A DNA stretch of 64,000 nt from Elusimicrobium sp. An273 (lineage in GTDB: Bacteria > Elusimicrobiota > Elusimicrobia > Elusimicrobiales > Elusimicrobiaceae), in contig NZ_NFJD01000001.1 in the NCBI RefSeq assembly GCF_002159705.1, forward strand, positions 186,001-250,000, in the 5' to 3' direction. Both the position numbers and the translations under genes were made by a program. The notes beneath the pieces are model-generated. The model did not search any database, was not told the origin of the DNA, and saw only the letters and a program-made list of their open reading frames with translations. Shown here piece by piece: positions 41,653 to 49,826 of the stretch. Position 1 is the first letter of the stretch. Every line of letters begins with the position of its first letter.

Positions 41653-44600
41653 TCAGAATTGCACCGTTACGTTGGCCGCCACATTGTAGGCCGTATAATC
41701 TTCGGTTTCCACATACGCGTGGTTGAGCAGTGTAAATCCGCCGCCTACGGTAAAGCGCAGGTTTTGCGAAAGTTCATAATCCAGCGAGGTGCTGAAATCA
41801 AATTTTTTGTAGTTTTCCGTTACTTCCACCGGAGAGCGTTTGTCCGTATACGAAAAAGTGGTGTTCCAAATCACGCGGTTGGTGGCGTTGTACATTTTAT
41901 TGATAAACGGCAGTTTAAAACCGCGCGGGAGGTTGAAGTCCCAGCGGAGGTTCAGGCTGGGGGTAGTTTCGGTACTGCTTTCGCTGATTTGGCCCGCCAC
42001 CAGCCATTTTTCGTGCGACGTGTGAAGCAGTTTGGGCGTAACGCGCATGGAGCCGATGTAAAAAGAAGTCTGGGCCGAAATATCGTTATCCTCAATGCGC
42101 TCCAAACTGGTGCCGGCGCGCAAGTCCGTCTTGTCGGAGGTTTTGCGCGTATAGTTAAGCACCGTGTCAAAATAATTAAACAGCATAAACCGCAAGTCCC
42201 CCCCGTACTGGGTGGTGTATTGTTCGTCCGTTCCCGGGGTGTTTTGCTCCACCCAGCTGTAGCGCAGTTTTAAGTTGGACGAGCTGAACCAGCGGCCGCC
42301 GTAAAAGAATTTTTCCAAGTCGGAAATGGAAAACGTCATATCCGGCAAGGTTAAGCTGGTGGAATCATACAGCGTGCCGGTTTGGTCGTTGGTTTGCAGG
42401 GTGCGGGTAAAGTTGTTAATCAGCGAAATCGTCTTTAACGGGGCGGCGGCGCCTTCCAGGTTGTACTGCGAAAGCGGACTCCAGCGCTGGGTAGAGGTGA
42501 ACGTGTCGCGCAAGGTTAAGCTCTTGCGATAGCCGTATTCCCCCACGTCTTTTAAGGAACTGCGGATCCACAAATCTTTGCGGGAGTCGTAGTCGCTGTC
42601 CACGTCGTACCAGGAGTCCGCGTCCTGGATGCGGTAGCTGGAGGAAATGACAAACGTGTTAAAGAGCTTGCTGTTGGGCAGGATTTCATTTCCGTTTAGC
42701 GTCAGCGAGATACCGCCGTCTGCGTTGCGGTTGATGGTTTTTACTTCTCCCACCCCCACGGTTACCTGCTGCCCGGCGGCGTTAAGCGTTTTGGCCGTCA
42801 GGTTGTTGCTTTCCACGGTACTGATGTTGTAGCTGACGGACGGCGCCAGCCATTTGGTGATTTTCCACGTGCTGTTAAAACCGGTGTTCTGGCTCATGGC
42901 TTTGGGATAGCTGATGTTTTGGGCGGACGTTTCCTGATAGGTAGTGCGGTCTTCCTTGCTTTTGCTTAAACTGTAACTGGGGGTAAAGTTAAAATTATTC
43001 GTCGGCTGGTACGTTACCTTCATGTTCATTTTTTGGGTGTTTTCGTCGGTATTGTAGTAATTGTCGGACTCCAAATGCCGCGTCCGGTCATAATTAATGG
43101 ACGAGTCGGTAATGTGGTACCCGGCCGTAATGTTTTTAAACGTGCCGGCCGAATGCGTCAGCGTGGCGCCGTAGGTGCGGGCGTCGTCCTTGCGTTTCAT
43201 CGCGTCGTATTCCACCTGATCGGTGGTGTATTCCAAGCCGATTTGAGGGAAGTTATCTTTCTTAAAGTCGCCGCGCACGACCGCGCTTTGCCGGTCTACC
43301 TTGCCTTTATCCAACAGGCTGATGGTGTTGTAATCCGTCGTGTCCGTTACCAAGGGGGTTACGGTGCTGGAACGGGTTAAATTGGCCTGCATGGGAAATT
43401 CTTTAATTTTATCCACTTTCAAAAAGTATTCTTCCTGCGTGACTTCCTGATTTTTGGACACGGCAAGCGGCGTTTCAAAATTGCTGTCCTGATACTTATA
43501 CTTGGCCCCCGCACTGCCCCAGCCGTCCAGGTTTACCACCACATCTCCCTTATAGGCCGTGCCTTCCAGCGTAATGGATTCGGCCAAGTGAATTACATTC
43601 AGCCACACTTCGCCCTGGCTGCCCAGTGCGCTTACCTGATCCAGCACCGCCGTGTACGATTTGCCGTTTTCCAGCGTAACGGCATAAGAGCCGTCCGCCT
43701 GCGTGGAAACGGTTTGCACCGTCCCCGCGGAAACCGTAAAATTGGCATCGCCGTACAGCGCCAGCCCCGGCTGCAAAATGCCGCGGGCAAAAAGGGTTTG
43801 CGTGTTATCCTGCTGCGTAAACGTGTACGTATAGCGGCTTTCGGGCTGCACGCCCGTAAACATCAAGCTGACTTCTCTAAAGTTAAGCAATCCGCCCGGC
43901 CCCCGGTGGTGCACGACACGCACATTGTAGGAGGGATCCGATATATTTTCAAACGAGTCGGGCACGCCGTCCATATCCGTATCCACCATCCGCAGGGAAA
44001 TAAGACGCCAGCCGCGGAAATCGGTCGGCACGATGATTTTGTCAAAATTGTTTTCCGTACCCACTTTTAAAAAGAACTCCGTGCCGGGCTGGTTTAACGG
44101 GCGGGCGCCGCCCTGCTCCATGGCGCCGTGCAGCAAAAAGCGGAATTCCCGGTGCTGGGTAAAATCCATACTGGAGAAGTTGCGGTTGGCGTAGCGTTCG
44201 CCCGCCGGATTGTTTTCCGTGCTGTCGTCCCGCACGGGGGAAAGGCCGATGGTATTAAATTTAATGTTCAGGGCCTGATCCAAGGCGTTGGCAGAGCCGG
44301 TGGCCTGTTTATAGTTATTAACCGAGCCGTACAAATAATTAAATACCGTCAGCCCGTCGCCAGTGGTATCGGCAAAGATCGGCTCGTAGTTGGTGTCGTC
44401 CACATTGTTGATGCCCGCCACGGAGAAAACATCCGGATCGGTTTCGTTTTGGGCGTTCCACGCCGTGCCGGACAAAGACACGTTGGCAATTTTAATTTGC
44501 CCTTTTAATTTGCCGGCGCGTTTCATTTCGTCGGTTAATTTAAGCGTAATACGCAGGTGGCGCACGGCCGTCCATTGTTCCTTTTCTTCCGTAGACAATA

Positions 44601-47307
44601 AAAGCGGCATCGTGTAGGTCGTCCACGCGGTGTTGGATGCCGTATTGTTCACCATTCCGTCAATAGACGCCCCCGCAAAACCGAAGTTGCCCTGGGCGGG
44701 CATACTTTCGGCGTCATAGGCGCCGTTGCCGTTTAAATCCTGCGTATCAATGCGCCCGTTGGGCTGGGATTCGGGGTTGTAGACGTTGTTTACAAACGGA
44801 TTATAGCGTTCTTCCGTCCCGTCCGGGTTGGTAAACAGCCAGCCGATATCTTCATTCGGCGCCAGGGTGTTGCGGCAGTAAATGTCTTCGGTCTTGGGAA
44901 CGTTAGTGCCGCATTGGGTATCCATTCCGTTGGAAGAATCGGAGTATTCGGAAATATTACCGAAAGCAAAGTTGACCTGCGGGCCGTTTTCTTCGCCCAG
45001 CATCGTCAGTTCAAAAGAGGTTTTGCTGGACAAATCCATCCCGCTTTGGCTCAGCGGATAGACGATGGAAACCTCGTCGCGCCCTTCCTCGTTTAAAAAC
45101 GGCTGCCCGGTTGTTTGGTCAATGGTGGTGGCCGGAAGGGTGAAATCGTAATTTAACACCAGCACTTGCTGTTTGTCGTTATAATTGGCGATGGAGTGCG
45201 GGTTGATTTCCAGCGAAGGCAAATCCTGCGTGTCCCAATGGATAGAGTTTAAGAAAGCGGGTTTGCCGCTGGGGTTGGAAGCAAAAATCCAGTCCCTGAA
45301 AATGCGCGAACCGGCCACTTGTTCGGTGGCTTCGTTCATGCTGTCCACCATGGCGTAGCCAAACAGGTTTTGATTTTTTTTGCTTTTGGCCACTTCCGCG
45401 CTGAAATCCACCGACAGCGGCTCTGCCAGCCGAATGTCTTTGCCGTTAATATCCGCCCCGTAAACGAGCAAATCCTTGGAATAATTGCCCACCTGCGGAA
45501 CGGTGTTGGGTTTTTCGCCGCTTTCTTTAAGCATGGTGGCGCCCATGATGATTTTGTCAAACAGTTTATAATCCAGCCGCCCGCCCATCACCGAGTTGTT
45601 GGAACTGGAGCCGGTGGTGGTATCGTAGGTAATGTCTATGACGGAATTTTCGGTAATTTCATCCCCTTTATAAAAAGTGATAAAGCCGGAGGTATAGTCA
45701 ATATAATAATCGTTGTTGCGCGTGAGGGTGCGGCCGTTTAATTTGACGGTTTCGGATTCAATCACGATGCCCGACTCGATAAAGTAGGTTTTTACGGTGG
45801 ATTCGTACTGAATTTTAAACGTCAGGTTTTTAGAGGACGTCGGCGTGGCGCCGTAGAGCCCGGTGTCGTTAATGCGGTAGGCCAGGTCAAAAATACCGCT
45901 GTCAAAATCCACGTCAATATACGTGGGATAGGTATAATAGGGGCTGGTAAGCGCCTGGCCGTTGGCGTCTTGCAATTGCAAAATAAAATTGCCTTTTCCG
46001 TTGTCCTGCGTAATTTTTTGCGCGCCGATATTGTAATACGTTTTCAGCTCCAGTTTGTTGGCGGTCTCGGTTACCATGGCGGGGCCGGTTTCAATGGATT
46101 TGTCGTTGGCGGTTTTAATCAGTTTAATGGTGCCGGTTTTCCCCAAGACATTGCTTAACTGGTTGCCGCGGGTGTCGCGGTAATCCACGGCGATAACGCT
46201 CTCCGCCGTAACCGTGCGTTTAAACGTAATGATGCCGCTTGCATAATCCACCGTATAGTCCACGCCGCGCGTTAAAAGCTGCCACTTGGCGGGATATTCC
46301 GTACTGCCCAAAGCGTCGGTGGCAATGCGGTCTATCGGCACGTAATCGGAGGAGGTGGAAGAATCGTTGCTGTAGTAATAAATTTCTTCCGTGCCGGGCG
46401 AGATGCTGCCCATCACGGTGCGCCACTCATCATACGCGGTGCGGTCTACCGGGTAGCGGATGCTGCCGCCGTCGTCAATATACGGGCGGACGTTGCCGCC
46501 GAACGTCAAATCGTAATACGTGCGGCGCAGATAGGAAGTGTCCGCCAGCGAAATAATTTCCGACACGCTGCTGCCGATAAATTGCTTTTGTTTGCTGGAA
46601 CCTTTGGTTTGCGAGCCGATTAAATACAAATTGGCGTTTTTGTGCTGCAAGTGCATTTTGGCGCCGAACAGTTGCTTTTGATAGGCGATAAACTCCGTTT
46701 CCGGCAGGGACAAATTAATATCCCCGAATTCAGCCAGCTGCACCAGTTCCCCCGGTTTGCCGCGGTAAGCCACGGAAATGGTTTTTTCCTCTTCGCGCTG
46801 GTCGTCGTAGTCGATATCCACAAACACGCGCTCCAAAATTTTACCCTGCATTTTAAGCTGCATTTCCTGCTGCATTTCAAACGTGCTGGTGTTGCGTTTA
46901 TTGATGTCGTTATTGGAGTCTTTTTTGTATTTCTGCGCCGCCATTTGGAACCCCAGCACATAGCGCCCGGTTAAAGCGATGCTGGTGCCGTAAAGCGGCA
47001 GGGAAAGAGTGGGATTTAAAAGCGTCAAGTCCGGAATCGGCTCCGGCTCGTTGTCCAGCTTATACGAGCCCTCCACCGAAGTAACCGCCTGGCGCCAAAA
47101 CTCGTTGGTAAATTTAAGCAGCTGGGCGTCGTCCGGCGGGTCTTGAATCGTAAGGGCCTCTTCTTCTTTTTCGGCTTGGTCTTCGGCAAAAATATCGTAT
47201 TGATCGCGGTCTACCAGGGTGTACGGCAGCGATTCGGCGCCGGCCGGAGGGGCGGCGACGAATTGCAAAATAAGCAGCAGGGCCACAGGCAGCCGCAGTA
47301 TTTTCAT
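41653..47307 (-). CDS. giant SprA-like outer-membrane barrel protein
   Basis: This 1884-aa protein has a signal peptide (MKILRLPVALLLILQFVAAP) and ends in VAANVTVQF. A terminal Phe is usual for BAM-inserted barrels. The segment GELVQLAEFGDINLSLPETE followed by QKQLFGAKMHLQHKNANLYL (about 185-225) resembles the SprA_N pattern (GNVSLP...SLFGIKAQLQ). Two copies of a DYxxDYxSGxITF motif (near 352 and 542) also recall SprA, the 36-strand channel of the type IX secretion system. A DTDMDGVPDSFEN calcium-type repeat lies near 1110; the last 500 residues are amphipathic strands. It is about 500 residues shorter than Bacteroidota SprA. It could be a secretion channel or surface barrel; no other T9SS gene is seen here. 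Confidence 0.72.
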   Translation of the reverse strand: MKILRLPVALLLILQFVAAPPAGAESLPYTLVDRDQYDIFAEDQAEKEEEALTIQDPPDDAQLLKFTNEFWRQAVTSVEGSYKLDNEPEPIPDLTLLNPTLSLPLYGTSIALTGRYVLGFQMAAQKYKKDSNNDINKRNTSTFEMQQEMQLKMQGKILERVFVDIDYDDQREEEKTISVAYRGKPGELVQLAEFGDINLSLPETEFIAYQKQLFGAKMHLQHKNANLYLIGSQTKGSSKQKQFIGSSVSEIISLADTSYLRRTYYDLTFGGNVRPYIDDGGSIRYPVDRTAYDEWRTVMGSISPGTEEIYYYSNDSSTSSDYVPIDRIATDALGSTEYPAKWQLLTRGVDYTVDYASGIITFKRTVTAESVIAVDYRDTRGNQLSNVLGKTGTIKLIKTANDKSIETGPAMVTETANKLELKTYYNIGAQKITQDNGKGNFILQLQDANGQALTSPYYTYPTYIDVDFDSGIFDLAYRINDTGLYGATPTSSKNLTFKIQYESTVKTYFIESGIVIESETVKLNGRTLTRNNDYYIDYTSGFITFYKGDEITENSVIDITYDTTTGSSSNNSVMGGRLDYKLFDKIIMGATMLKESGEKPNTVPQVGNYSKDLLVYGADINGKDIRLAEPLSVDFSAEVAKSKKNQNLFGYAMVDSMNEATEQVAGSRIFRDWIFASNPSGKPAFLNSIHWDTQDLPSLEINPHSIANYNDKQQVLVLNYDFTLPATTIDQTTGQPFLNEEGRDEVSIVYPLSQSGMDLSSKTSFELTMLGEENGPQVNFAFGNISEYSDSSNGMDTQCGTNVPKTEDIYCRNTLAPNEDIGWLFTNPDGTEERYNPFVNNVYNPESQPNGRIDTQDLNGNGAYDAESMPAQGNFGFAGASIDGMVNNTASNTAWTTYTMPLLLSTEEKEQWTAVRHLRITLKLTDEMKRAGKLKGQIKIANVSLSGTAWNAQNETDPDVFSVAGINNVDDTNYEPIFADTTGDGLTVFNYLYGSVNNYKQATGSANALDQALNIKFNTIGLSPVRDDSTENNPAGERYANRNFSSMDFTQHREFRFLLHGAMEQGGARPLNQPGTEFFLKVGTENNFDKIIVPTDFRGWRLISLRMVDTDMDGVPDSFENISDPSYNVRVVHHRGPGGLLNFREVSLMFTGVQPESRYTYTFTQQDNTQTLFARGILQPGLALYGDANFTVSAGTVQTVSTQADGSYAVTLENGKSYTAVLDQVSALGSQGEVWLNVIHLAESITLEGTAYKGDVVVNLDGWGSAGAKYKYQDSNFETPLAVSKNQEVTQEEYFLKVDKIKEFPMQANLTRSSTVTPLVTDTTDYNTISLLDKGKVDRQSAVVRGDFKKDNFPQIGLEYTTDQVEYDAMKRKDDARTYGATLTHSAGTFKNITAGYHITDSSINYDRTRHLESDNYYNTDENTQKMNMKVTYQPTNNFNFTPSYSLSKSKEDRTTYQETSAQNISYPKAMSQNTGFNSTWKITKWLAPSVSYNISTVESNNLTAKTLNAAGQQVTVGVGEVKTINRNADGGISLTLNGNEILPNSKLFNTFVISSSYRIQDADSWYDVDSDYDSRKDLWIRSSLKDVGEYGYRKSLTLRDTFTSTQRWSPLSQYNLEGAAAPLKTISLINNFTRTLQTNDQTGTLYDSTSLTLPDMTFSISDLEKFFYGGRWFSSSNLKLRYSWVEQNTPGTDEQYTTQYGGDLRFMLFNYFDTVLNYTRKTSDKTDLRAGTSLERIEDNDISAQTSFYIGSMRVTPKLLHTSHEKWLVAGQISESSTETTPSLNLRWDFNLPRGFKLPFINKMYNATNRVIWNTTFSYTDKRSPVEVTENYKKFDFSTSLDYELSQNLRFTVGGGFTLLNHAYVETEDYTAYNVAANVTVQF

Positions 47308-47390
47308 AAGAAGGAAAAATACCTCATTATTTCATTCTATAATATTTACCCTTTCTCTACCGTCTGTATTTGTTTCCTGTTTTGCCCATC

Positions 47391-47417
47391 AAAAAGCCCC
47401 CTCTCGGGGGGCTTTCT
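47391..47417 (-). terminator. terminator of the secreted protease gene
   Basis: Stem AAAGCCCCC/GGGGGGCTTT with a small loop. On the minus strand it is followed by TTTTTGATG. It separates the protease from the giant barrel gene. Confidence 0.85.
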
Positions 47418-47433
47418 TAAAAACGAATTTTTA

Positions 47434-48606
47434 TTAAGAAATACCGACGGAAACCGTCCGATCCACAAACCGATGTTTTACGATTTCAAATTCCAAAAAA
47501 TCGCCATGCTGCACGTCGGGAAACAACCACTCCGCATGTTCCGGGTCAAACCGGCCGTTATATTTGGGCAGATATACTTTGTGCAGCAGCGTGCCGCCTT
47601 GGTCAAAGTGATACACCCAGCCGATCGTTTCTTCCGCTTGGATTTGCAGCACGTCCCGGCCATACACCTTATACGTAAGCGGCGCCGGCAGTTTGCCTTG
47701 TTCGTAGCTTTCCAACAGCCACTCCAGCGCTTGGCGGGCATTGACCGCAAACACCTGCCCTTGCTCCGGGTCATGGCCGCTGTAAATACCGGCCACTTGC
47801 CCTTGCGCATTTAAAACGGGACTGCCGCACAAACCGTTAAATTCTTCCGATACGTCCGGGCTGTCCATCACCATTTTAATTCCTTGCGCCAGCGTTACTT
47901 TTAACTCATCTATTCGTGCAAATCCTTCGCAGGCATACGGGCTGCCCCACACCACCAGTTCGCTGCCTTTCTCCGGCAAAGAGGGGGCTATCGTTAGCGG
48001 CCGCACATACGCTTGGGCCTCTTGCGGCAAAGCGATGATGGCTGCGTCCGGCGCATTAATGCCGAACGAGCCCGCCGCATTGACAATTAACCCGTTATAC
48101 ACAACCGGGGCCCCTTTTTCCGGATACGTCCGCACCGCCACGGTATTTCCTTTCCGCCCCACCACATGATACGATACCACCGCATACAATCGCCCCGAAC
48201 GCGACTGTACCACAAATCCGCTTCCCATCAGGTCTCCACTGGCTCTGCCCACCACTTCCACTAACGAGGCGCGGATATGCTTTTCGGTCTGGGCCAAAGA
48301 AGTTGTTTCGGCAGGAGCCTGCAGGCCGCCGAGGGTTTGGCGGGCAATCGTCCGCTGCAGTGGGCTGAAATCAGCCACCTCCTGTTCGTTTCGGACGGGC
48401 GGTTTAACGACGGCGGTTTTGGCCGTTTGAAAAGCGCTTTGCGCCGCCAAAGAAGCCGGGGGAATATAGCGAAGATTAAGCAGGATATTTTTTTCTATTT
48501 TGGCGGGAGCCAGCCCGCCGCGCAGGAAATTCTTAGCCGGAAGTTTCTGGGCTGCTGCAAAGGGGACTGTCAGCAAGCAAGATAATACGAAAAGAAACGC
48601 TCTCAT
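47434..48606 (-). CDS. secreted trypsin-fold protease with Cys at the nucleophile position
   Basis: This 390-aa protein has a signal peptide (MRAFLFVLSCLLTVPFAAA), an approximately 100-residue spacer, and a chymotrypsin/HtrA-like domain. The triad positions are His147 (VVSYHVVGRKG), Asp187 (NAPDAAIIALP) and Cys260 in NGLCGSPVLNAQGQVAGI, where S1 proteases have GNSGGP. A Cys nucleophile is known from viral 3C proteases; it could also mean an inactive or differently active enzyme. The C-terminal 100 residues form a further domain without recognised motifs. The ATG at 48606 lies 6 nt after TATAAT with no Shine-Dalgarno. Confidence 0.82.
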   Translation of the reverse strand: MRAFLFVLSCLLTVPFAAAQKLPAKNFLRGGLAPAKIEKNILLNLRYIPPASLAAQSAFQTAKTAVVKPPVRNEQEVADFSPLQRTIARQTLGGLQAPAETTSLAQTEKHIRASLVEVVGRASGDLMGSGFVVQSRSGRLYAVVSYHVVGRKGNTVAVRTYPEKGAPVVYNGLIVNAAGSFGINAPDAAIIALPQEAQAYVRPLTIAPSLPEKGSELVVWGSPYACEGFARIDELKVTLAQGIKMVMDSPDVSEEFNGLCGSPVLNAQGQVAGIYSGHDPEQGQVFAVNARQALEWLLESYEQGKLPAPLTYKVYGRDVLQIQAEETIGWVYHFDQGGTLLHKVYLPKYNGRFDPEHAEWLFPDVQHGDFLEFEIVKHRFVDRTVSVGIS

Positions 48607-48618
48607 ATCTATATTATA
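48607..48618 (-). promoter_or_regulatory. leaderless-type promoter of the secreted protease
   Basis: On the minus strand, consensus TATAAT is followed by ATAGAT and then ATG, so the predicted transcript starts at the initiation codon. Confidence 0.65.
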
Positions 48619-48715
48619 TCCGCTGCATCCGGCGGCCGCCAGAGCCAAAAGGCCTATAAAAGCGCTGGGTCTTGCCTCTCTTCAGAGATTTCTCCTGCGG
48701 GCGGGTTTGATATTT

Positions 48716-48731
48716 TGTTAGAATAATATAT
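48716..48731 (+). promoter_or_regulatory. leaderless-type extended -10 promoter of lptF-lptG
   Basis: TGT-TAGAAT (48716-48724), then seven bases, then ATG. No Shine-Dalgarno. It is divergent from the protease promoter about 100 bp away. Confidence 0.6.
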
Positions 48732-49826
48732 ATGCGCGTCAGCATTTTTACCAAATACATTGCAAAAAGTCTCCTTACGTTTTTTATAGGCGTATTGGGA
48801 GTGCTGACGTTTGTTATTTTTATGAACCAGTTCATCCGTATCCTGGATATGGCCATGACGTACGGCACCAGTTTCGGGTGGATTGTATCTTCTCTTCTTA
48901 ACGTGCTGCCCAATGTGTTTTGCTTAAGCGCGCCGATGGCCTTTCAGATTGCCATTTTGCTGACGCTGACCAATATGAGCGAACACGGCGAACTTATTGC
49001 CTTGCGCGCGGCGGGATTTTCGTTTAAAGAGATTATCCGGCCGCTTTTTATTTGCGCCCTGGGGCTGACGGTGGTAATGTTTGTCATGCAAAATTGGCTG
49101 ACTCCGCGCAGCTACAAACGCCTCTTAGACCGCCGCAGCGAAGCCCGCAGTAAAATTACCAAAGTAAATTTGGAACCCAAAACATTCTTAAATTTAGGCG
49201 AATGGGATTTGTATTTGGAAAGCTTGGACAAAGACACGGATGTCGCCCGGCAAATTCATCTGATTAAAAAAGAAGATAACGGCGCCCTGAGCACCAAAGT
49301 AAACGCTTCTTCCGGCAAAGTGATTTTAACCCATACGGCCATCGGCCTGCAGCTCAAAGACGGGCAAATGCAGCGCCTGGACGACAAAGATCCTTCCTCT
49401 TTTATCGCCGCCAATTTTGACGAATACATTATGAGCATTTCCCTCTTAAAGGCCCAATACCGCCGTTTGCGCGTAGGGGAAATGTCCACCACCAAACTGC
49501 TTAGACGCATGCGCCAAATGCCTTTAGATCCCGAAACCATCAACGAATACCGCACCGAAATCAGCATGCGCAACGTACTCGCTTTCTCCCCGATTGTATT
49601 GCTGTTTGTCAGCTGTCCGATCGGATTCTCCTTCGGCAAAAGAACCAATAAGGGCTGGGGAATGCTCTTTAGCGTGATTATCATTTTTACGTTCTATTTA
49701 TTAATGACGCTGGGCCTTTCTTTAGGGAAAAAATACGGATGGATTGCCTACCCCGGCCCGTGGCTGCCGATTATAGCCGGCATTTTTGCGGCCCGTTACC
49801 TATGGAAAAAGAGGTTAAACATTTAA
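48732..49826 (+). CDS. lptF: LPS export permease LptF
   Basis: This 364-aa YjgP/YjgQ-family permease has three N-terminal membrane helices, a periplasmic jellyroll-like domain (about 130-260) and three C-terminal helices. FTKYIAKSLLTFFIGVLGVL and VLPNVFCLSAPMAFQIAILL are typical. With LptG and LptB it extracts LPS from the inner membrane. It is the first of a two-gene operon and starts without a Shine-Dalgarno. LptF/LptG assignment follows order only. Confidence 0.9.
   Translation: MRVSIFTKYIAKSLLTFFIGVLGVLTFVIFMNQFIRILDMAMTYGTSFGWIVSSLLNVLPNVFCLSAPMAFQIAILLTLTNMSEHGELIALRAAGFSFKEIIRPLFICALGLTVVMFVMQNWLTPRSYKRLLDRRSEARSKITKVNLEPKTFLNLGEWDLYLESLDKDTDVARQIHLIKKEDNGALSTKVNASSGKVILTHTAIGLQLKDGQMQRLDDKDPSSFIAANFDEYIMSISLLKAQYRRLRVGEMSTTKLLRRMRQMPLDPETINEYRTEISMRNVLAFSPIVLLFVSCPIGFSFGKRTNKGWGMLFSVIIIFTFYLLMTLGLSLGKKYGWIAYPGPWLPIIAGIFAARYLWKKRLNI

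Follow-up and report, generated by a model that had tools for sequence, protein, structure and literature searches.

We identified, in the window analysed here (64,000 nucleotides of Elusimicrobium sp. An273 DNA), a gene whose product, P0001, is predicted to be an exported cysteine endopeptidase of the PA clan and a member of an expanded, lineage-specific family of Elusimicrobiota. From the sequence comparisons below we consider this reading to be quite probable. The catalytic triad is His-Asp-Cys, with cysteine at the position that serine holds in the related bacterial enzymes. The features of the locus are as follows.

47434 to 48606, minus strand: protease gene P0001, 390 amino acids (open reading frame from ATG, Pfam match, structural model)
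48547 to 48606, minus strand: signal-peptide-like segment of P0001, residues 1-20, MRAFLFVLSCLLTVPFAAAQ (family alignment columns)
48298 to 48546, minus strand: linker of P0001, residues 21-103 (low model confidence, fast-evolving)
47707 to 48297, minus strand: predicted chymotrypsin-fold catalytic domain of P0001, residues 104-300 (Pfam, model, dN/dS)
48166 to 48168, minus strand: codon of putative triad residue His147 (family alignment)
48046 to 48048, minus strand: codon of putative triad residue Asp187 (family alignment)
47827 to 47829, minus strand: codon of Cys260, the putative nucleophile (family alignment)
47437 to 47706, minus strand: C-terminal domain of P0001, residues 301-390, mainly strands in the model (Pfam, model)
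41653 to 47307, minus strand: SprA/Sov-like barrel gene, 1884 amino acids, downstream neighbour, given as context (open reading frame, TIGR04189)
48732 to 49826, plus strand: lptF, divergent neighbour, given as context (profile matches)

The signal segment ends in AAAQ. Among the family genes with a letter at these positions, column 19 is alanine in 118/133 and column 20 is glutamine in 109/133. We infer a signal peptidase I type site at residues 19-20 and export via Sec to the periplasm or beyond. The linker is possibly a propeptide, or else would serve as a tether. The C-terminal domain (residues 301-390) matched no Pfam family, and no PDZ domain was found in P0001 by Pfam at E 1 or better. 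A scan of positions 47250-48800 returned two promoter-like sites (shuffled sequences: mean 1.2, sd 1.2) and five terminator-like sites (mean 3.0, sd 2.0); both counts lie within about one standard deviation of the shuffles and are thus at chance level.

The original prediction was of a secreted protease of chymotrypsin fold whose triad reads His-Asp-Cys, and the Pfam match, the structural model and the family-wide conservation of the triad all agree with that description. His147 (SYHVV), Asp187 (NAPDAA) and Cys260 (GLCGSPV) were confirmed at those positions, counted from the methionine of the ATG, and the triad of P0001 is assigned by this order in the sequence. Pfam Trypsin_2 matched residues 128-274 (E 5.8e-7, 30.8 bits against a cut-off of 27.6) over its complete profile, positions 1-144, so that Cys260 falls in the nucleophile loop. 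The sole serine of GLCGSPV is Ser262, two residues further along, which stands at the second glycine of the usual GxSGG. The same Pfam family was matched by 51 of the 61 members of the family alignment A1.

A full-length model of P0001, built from four sequences, had a mean pLDDT of 55.6, with residues 242-259, directly before Cys260, below 50; a trimmed rerun with the same four orthologs was poorer (mean pLDDT 42.7). Foldseek nevertheless aligned the full-length model to DegP with E 1.3e-6 and returned 172 matches at E <=0.001. In a second alignment, run with VIA-align on Foldseek's top chains, residues 97-310 matched Deg1 with Z 15.3 and rmsd 4.1 over 189 residues; of 990 aligned chains, 961 had Z >=8. 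A double beta-barrel fold of the PA clan is thus supported by the sequence profile together with a model of modest confidence.

To follow the nucleophile across relatives, 101 genomes were searched. Matches occurred in 37, all belonging to one genus (g1), and part of the matched loci and stretches was collected, giving 138 family genes including that of the window after two truncated duplicates (L003 and a fragment in L021) had been left out of 140 rows. Surveyed for cysteine versus serine, the nucleophile column of these genes from one genus contained Cys in 134/138 and Ser in none (0/138); the remaining four genes have Ala, His, Tyr and Asn, one each. Such a count puts Cys260 beyond chance. 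The codon is TGC in 124 genes and TGT in 10. The triad histidine was kept in 134/136 genes, and in the aspartate column 126/136 genes have Asp and the other 10 have Asn. Among the 132 intact genes, those in which His, Asp or Asn, and Cys are all present, the motif glycines 258 and 261 (G-x-C-G) were found in every one. A larger set from the genus (167 domains after containment filtering) comprised 152 His-Asp-Cys, 10 His-Asn-Cys and 5 other domains.

Asparagine for the triad aspartate marks a His-Asn-Cys subgroup, seen at L047, L044, L048, L045, L053, L066, L041 and L043. Two more rows with Asn in the Asp column also lack the cysteine.

Selection on the gene was estimated as dN/dS by NG86 against three orthologs (L035-L037), with dS large or partly saturated for L036 and L037. 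Values for the catalytic domain were 0.098, 0.114 and 0.076, compared with 0.03-0.05 for lptF and 0.04-0.07 for sprA against the same orthologs. In the linker, dN/dS was 0.46 and 0.38 for the two computable pairs, and identity to the three orthologs was 25-35%. Identity to L035 was 68% for the protease, 97% for sprA and 96% for lptF. Purifying selection thus acts on the catalytic domain, though it is less constrained than lptF and sprA, and the linker evolves fast.

Conservation of the triad bears directly on two explanations in which Cys260 would not be the nucleophile of a protease. One is a pseudoprotease: the domain would have given up its serine and would bind peptides or proteins but no longer cut them. 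A few family members do carry broken triads (HNA, SDH, HDY and DNN), and the group with Asn187 is possibly losing activity: since the cysteine has gone as well in two Asn rows, this group may be decaying. With four of 138 genes lacking Cys and ten having Asn for Asp, some members of the family may have no activity. Loss of function would not, however, be expected to fix the cysteine (134/138), the histidine (134/136) and both glycines (132/132 intact members) among proteins as divergent as these; the 53 paralogs sampled are 16-35% identical to P0001. Moreover, serine is one base away from both TGC and TGT, yet it is absent. For the family as a whole we therefore regard a pseudoprotease as unlikely. 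The other explanation gives Cys260 a structural role, or makes it a redox or acylation site as in a transacylase or a thiol sensor. Thiol nucleophiles do serve in other acyl-transfer chemistry, and Cys260 may conceivably carry out acyl transfer in place of hydrolysis, but the histidine and aspartate are conserved here as in proteases. Nor has Cys260 a conserved partner: it is the sole conserved cysteine column past the signal peptide, the runner-up column having Cys in 37 rows, and in 61 of the 132 intact members the mature part contains no second cysteine, which excludes an internal disulphide for those 61. This explanation seems to us less probable still than a pseudoprotease, and the predicted cysteine endopeptidase is the reading that we retain.

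Substrate preference probably differs between paralogs, as position 275, which we take to be an S1-pocket position occupied by His in V8 and 3C enzymes, varies within the family. It is His in 83/132 genes and Tyr in P0001; in the relatives that share the lptF-sprA locus (L006-L017) it is Tyr in 11 of 12 and Phe in L016. This variation suggests that paralogs would cut after different residues, and by analogy the members with His275 may prefer Glu or Gln.

Four genes with the cysteine, all GxCG, were found in the genome of the window. Three of them lie away from lptF-sprA, two in tandem on contig 1 (531674-534062) and one on contig 2 (40648-41805). The same genome encodes chymotrypsin-type proteins with serine: L189 and L190 score above the Trypsin_2 cut-off, and L194 and L195, which match it weakly, were assigned to the Ser type by eye. 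At least two matches to the family profile were present in 43 of the 66 genomes of the genus, with a maximum of 15; scoring covered no more than 22 candidates per genome, and these matches may include a Ser relative. For the window genome, with five profile matches against four Cys genes, a Ser relative among the five is probable. Many paralogs sit elsewhere in their genomes, often in tandem.

The position of the gene raises the question of whether protease and SprA-like barrel act together, the protease maturing either the barrel or its cargo. That the gene lies just upstream of the giant barrel gene on the same strand was noted from the outset and is correct, the gap being 126 nt. The barrel itself matched TIGR04189 with E 1.4e-31 and 108.8 bits, below the cut-off of 200. 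Within the genus, sprA adjoins the protease in all 12 ortholog loci (L006-L017). The opposite neighbour of the protease is lptF in 11 of them, and the twelfth genome carries lptF on a separate contig. Judged by coordinates, G005, G046, G048 and G052 likewise have one to four family copies next to lptF. Against a partnership stands the wider survey of lptF, which was matched in 62 of the 66 genomes of the genus. Among the 30 lptF loci inspected, 12 had the protease and one ran off its contig; in the other 17, sprA and lptF stood 98-299 nt apart and no protease separated them. Since 17 of these 30 sites lack the protease, the barrel does not need it, and many family members, including three of the four in the window genome, are located elsewhere. 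Two families of type IX secretion were also looked for: the TIGR04183 sorting tail had no match in P0001 at E 1 and none in the window genome at E 0.1 (control search: matches in 6/14 genomes, 1 over the cut-off), and the GldM family was not found in that genome either, an absence that says little given that the control search matched 1/14 genomes and none over the cut-off. The link between protease and barrel is positional, and we rate a joint function as about as unlikely as a loss of catalysis. As a separate observation, the SprA/Sov-like barrel at 41653-47307 is present in a genome that gave no match to the TIGR04183 or GldM family.

The triad had also been likened to that of viral 3C-type proteases, and here the evidence divides. 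The shared part is mainly the nucleophile: cysteine in a chymotrypsin fold is quite common among virus proteases (PMC9647873), including the 3C, 3CL and NIa enzymes. Kinship was not borne out, as the best solved matches are bacterial and organellar serine proteases of the Deg/HtrA, V8 and Spl groups. With the family profile, among the best 60 of 231 matches to solved structures, plant Deg2 ranked top (5ilb, E 8.5e-10), followed by HtrA, V8 and Spl; the viral chains among these 60 carry the label non-structural protein or nsp4 serine protease, their E values are about 3e-6 to 4e-6, and the best stretch among them spans 22 profile positions. Matches of the 61 aligned members to viral Pfam families were weak: Peptidase_S32 in 17 (best E 0.00017), C3 in 4 (best E 0.0021), S7 in 2 and S29 in 1. 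S32 and S7 are serine families, and P0001 itself gave no Peptidase_C3 match at E 1. Among the Foldseek matches, a chain of engineered TEV protease stood at rank 30. Capture of a 3C/NIa-like protease from a virus by horizontal transfer could appeal to the common nucleophile, to these weak Pfam matches and to the TEV chain. On the other side, neither P0001 nor one giant-protein domain (see below) matched any of 50,697 phage records or any plasmid, P0001 had no match in PHROGs, and the relatives form a family inside the one phylum searched. The only trace in plasmids was a single weak serine-protease match of one paralog (E 0.05, 13% covered). With cellular serine enzymes as the best matches and no phage match for the two queries, the viral likeness is best read as convergent chemistry, and viral capture appears highly improbable. 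The cysteine is better read, from the tree described below, as a separate bacterial Ser-to-Cys switch than as a sign of 3C kinship. The two groups would also differ in setting: the family is cellular, multi-copy and, by prediction, exported, and the viral enzymes are not its best profile matches. P0001 is encoded by a stand-alone open reading frame.

Compared with known bacterial-type enzymes, P0001 resembles the HtrA/Deg proteins (Deg1, DegP, HTRA1) in fold (Z 14-15 among the matches listed), in best profile match and in its inferred exported location. It differs from them in having cysteine (GLCGSPV) in place of serine (GNSGGP), in the lack of a Pfam PDZ match and in its C-terminal domain. 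The staphylococcal V8 glutamyl endopeptidase and Spl proteases, matched at a profile E of about 1e-7, are likewise secreted enzymes of small size and chymotrypsin fold but have a serine nucleophile, unlike the family of P0001. Their hosts are Gram-positive, and the tandem spl arrays resemble the genetic layout of the family. MarP is a membrane serine protease; its family NF033740 gave the best NCBIfam match of P0001 (E 1.6e-5, residues 76-292), yet at 24.2 bits this lies far below the cut-off of 250. When four proteins were compared with the PADLOC defence library, two had matches, confined to the protease domain: RT-Protease_XI with E 1.4e-6 for P0001 and 1e-11 for a paralog, and LmuA with E 6.8e-6. 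These systems share the protease domain only, and no reverse transcriptase or defence gene was present among five scanned neighbours of P0001.

To trace the family outside the genus, 340 genomes of the phylum were searched. Of these, 63 gave matches at E <=1e-12, and the genus accounts for 44 of the 63. From 19 outside genomes (G115 and G124 left out, G109 and G110 contributing from weaker matches) we obtained 34 domains: 12 His-Asp-Cys, 21 Ser and 1 degenerate. The Ser count includes L110 (G119), whose loop reads GFSGGPV and whose cysteine lies upstream. All 12 His-Asp-Cys domains are in large or giant open reading frames. Genomes G106-G108 represent a second genus, from the same taxonomic family as that of the window. 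In G107 a 3968-aa frame holds three Cys domains and a degenerate one, and a 1371-aa frame holds one; in G108 a 5734-aa frame holds five His-Asp-Cys domains. Single domains of this type occur in G106, in frames of 1077 and 1107 aa, and in G296, in a frame of 3451 aa; those of 1107 and 3451 aa run open into the edge of their contig or stretch.

Several of these frames have further features. The 3968-aa frame (L141:757-12660, G107 being a single contig of 1,643,562 bases) has a signal-peptide-like start and eleven more hydrophobic stretches, and its four protease domains, three His-Asp-Cys and one degenerate, form a run at the C-terminal end; the frame as a whole resembles a polyprotein. In the 5734-aa frame (L142:490-17691) we noted by eye an LPPPxYLxSK...QER-like segment before four of the five Cys domains, as well as helical repeats and, towards the end, a stretch resembling HExxH. 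The G296 frame (L153:3-10355), open at both contig ends, fuses a low-molecular-weight phosphatase domain with the His-Asp-Cys domain. The large frames at L143 (G107) and L144 (G106) have a protein-kinase-like HGDxxxxN or HCDxxxxN stretch, also seen by eye, on one or the other side of the Cys protease domain.

In a tree of 98 domains one branch parts all 76 Cys from 20 Ser domains, with support 89/75, a count that sets aside one long-branch Ser row (the second domain of L119), which falls among the Cys rows and whose inclusion needs two changes. This moderately supported branch favours, without proving, a single Ser-to-Cys switch. Elusimicrobiota are described as tending toward huge encoded proteins, in a study whose main text mentions neither peptidases nor polyproteins (PMC11573180). 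Elusimicrobiota might have evolved a cellular branch of Cys chymotrypsin-fold proteases of their own, in which the domains of giant proteins would cut their own chain into pieces as a counterpart of viral polyproteins, and the arrays in the genus of the window would be the unlinked form. We offer this as a speculative extension that we consider rather improbable.

If P0001 is the cysteine endopeptidase that we predict, the fold suggests how it would work. With His147 to activate it and Asp187 to orient it, the thiolate of Cys260 would attack the peptide bond, and the backbone amides of the Gly258-Cys260 turn would form the oxyanion hole. Engineered trypsins in which serine was replaced by cysteine are very poor enzymes, so the presence of cysteine alone is no proof of activity. 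The host is presumably a gut anaerobe, as judged from related Elusimicrobia, in which an extracytoplasmic thiol nucleophile would be stable. The family would have arisen within Elusimicrobiota from a bacterial trypsin-2-type serine protease, probably by one Ser-to-Cys switch, and its expansion within one genus would then have produced the dispersed genes and the tandem arrays. Its likely role, at the level of a guess, would be to degrade or trim proteins outside the inner membrane.

To our knowledge, the chymotrypsin-fold cysteine members of the peptidase classification are catalogued from viruses. Among the titles and opening lines of abstracts in the open-licence literature we found no description of a bacterial His-Asp-Cys chymotrypsin-fold enzyme, or of such an enzyme in Elusimicrobia. 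The fold itself is known; the family bears a different nucleophile on it as a lineage-wide bacterial trait. To what extent the chymotrypsin fold can be adapted to cysteine, and for what reason serine was abandoned, has been put forward as an open question (PMC9647873). A conserved cellular Cys family of well over 100 genes, with Ser relatives in the same genome, provides natural material for this question, and it is open to expression, comparison and mutation without any virus.
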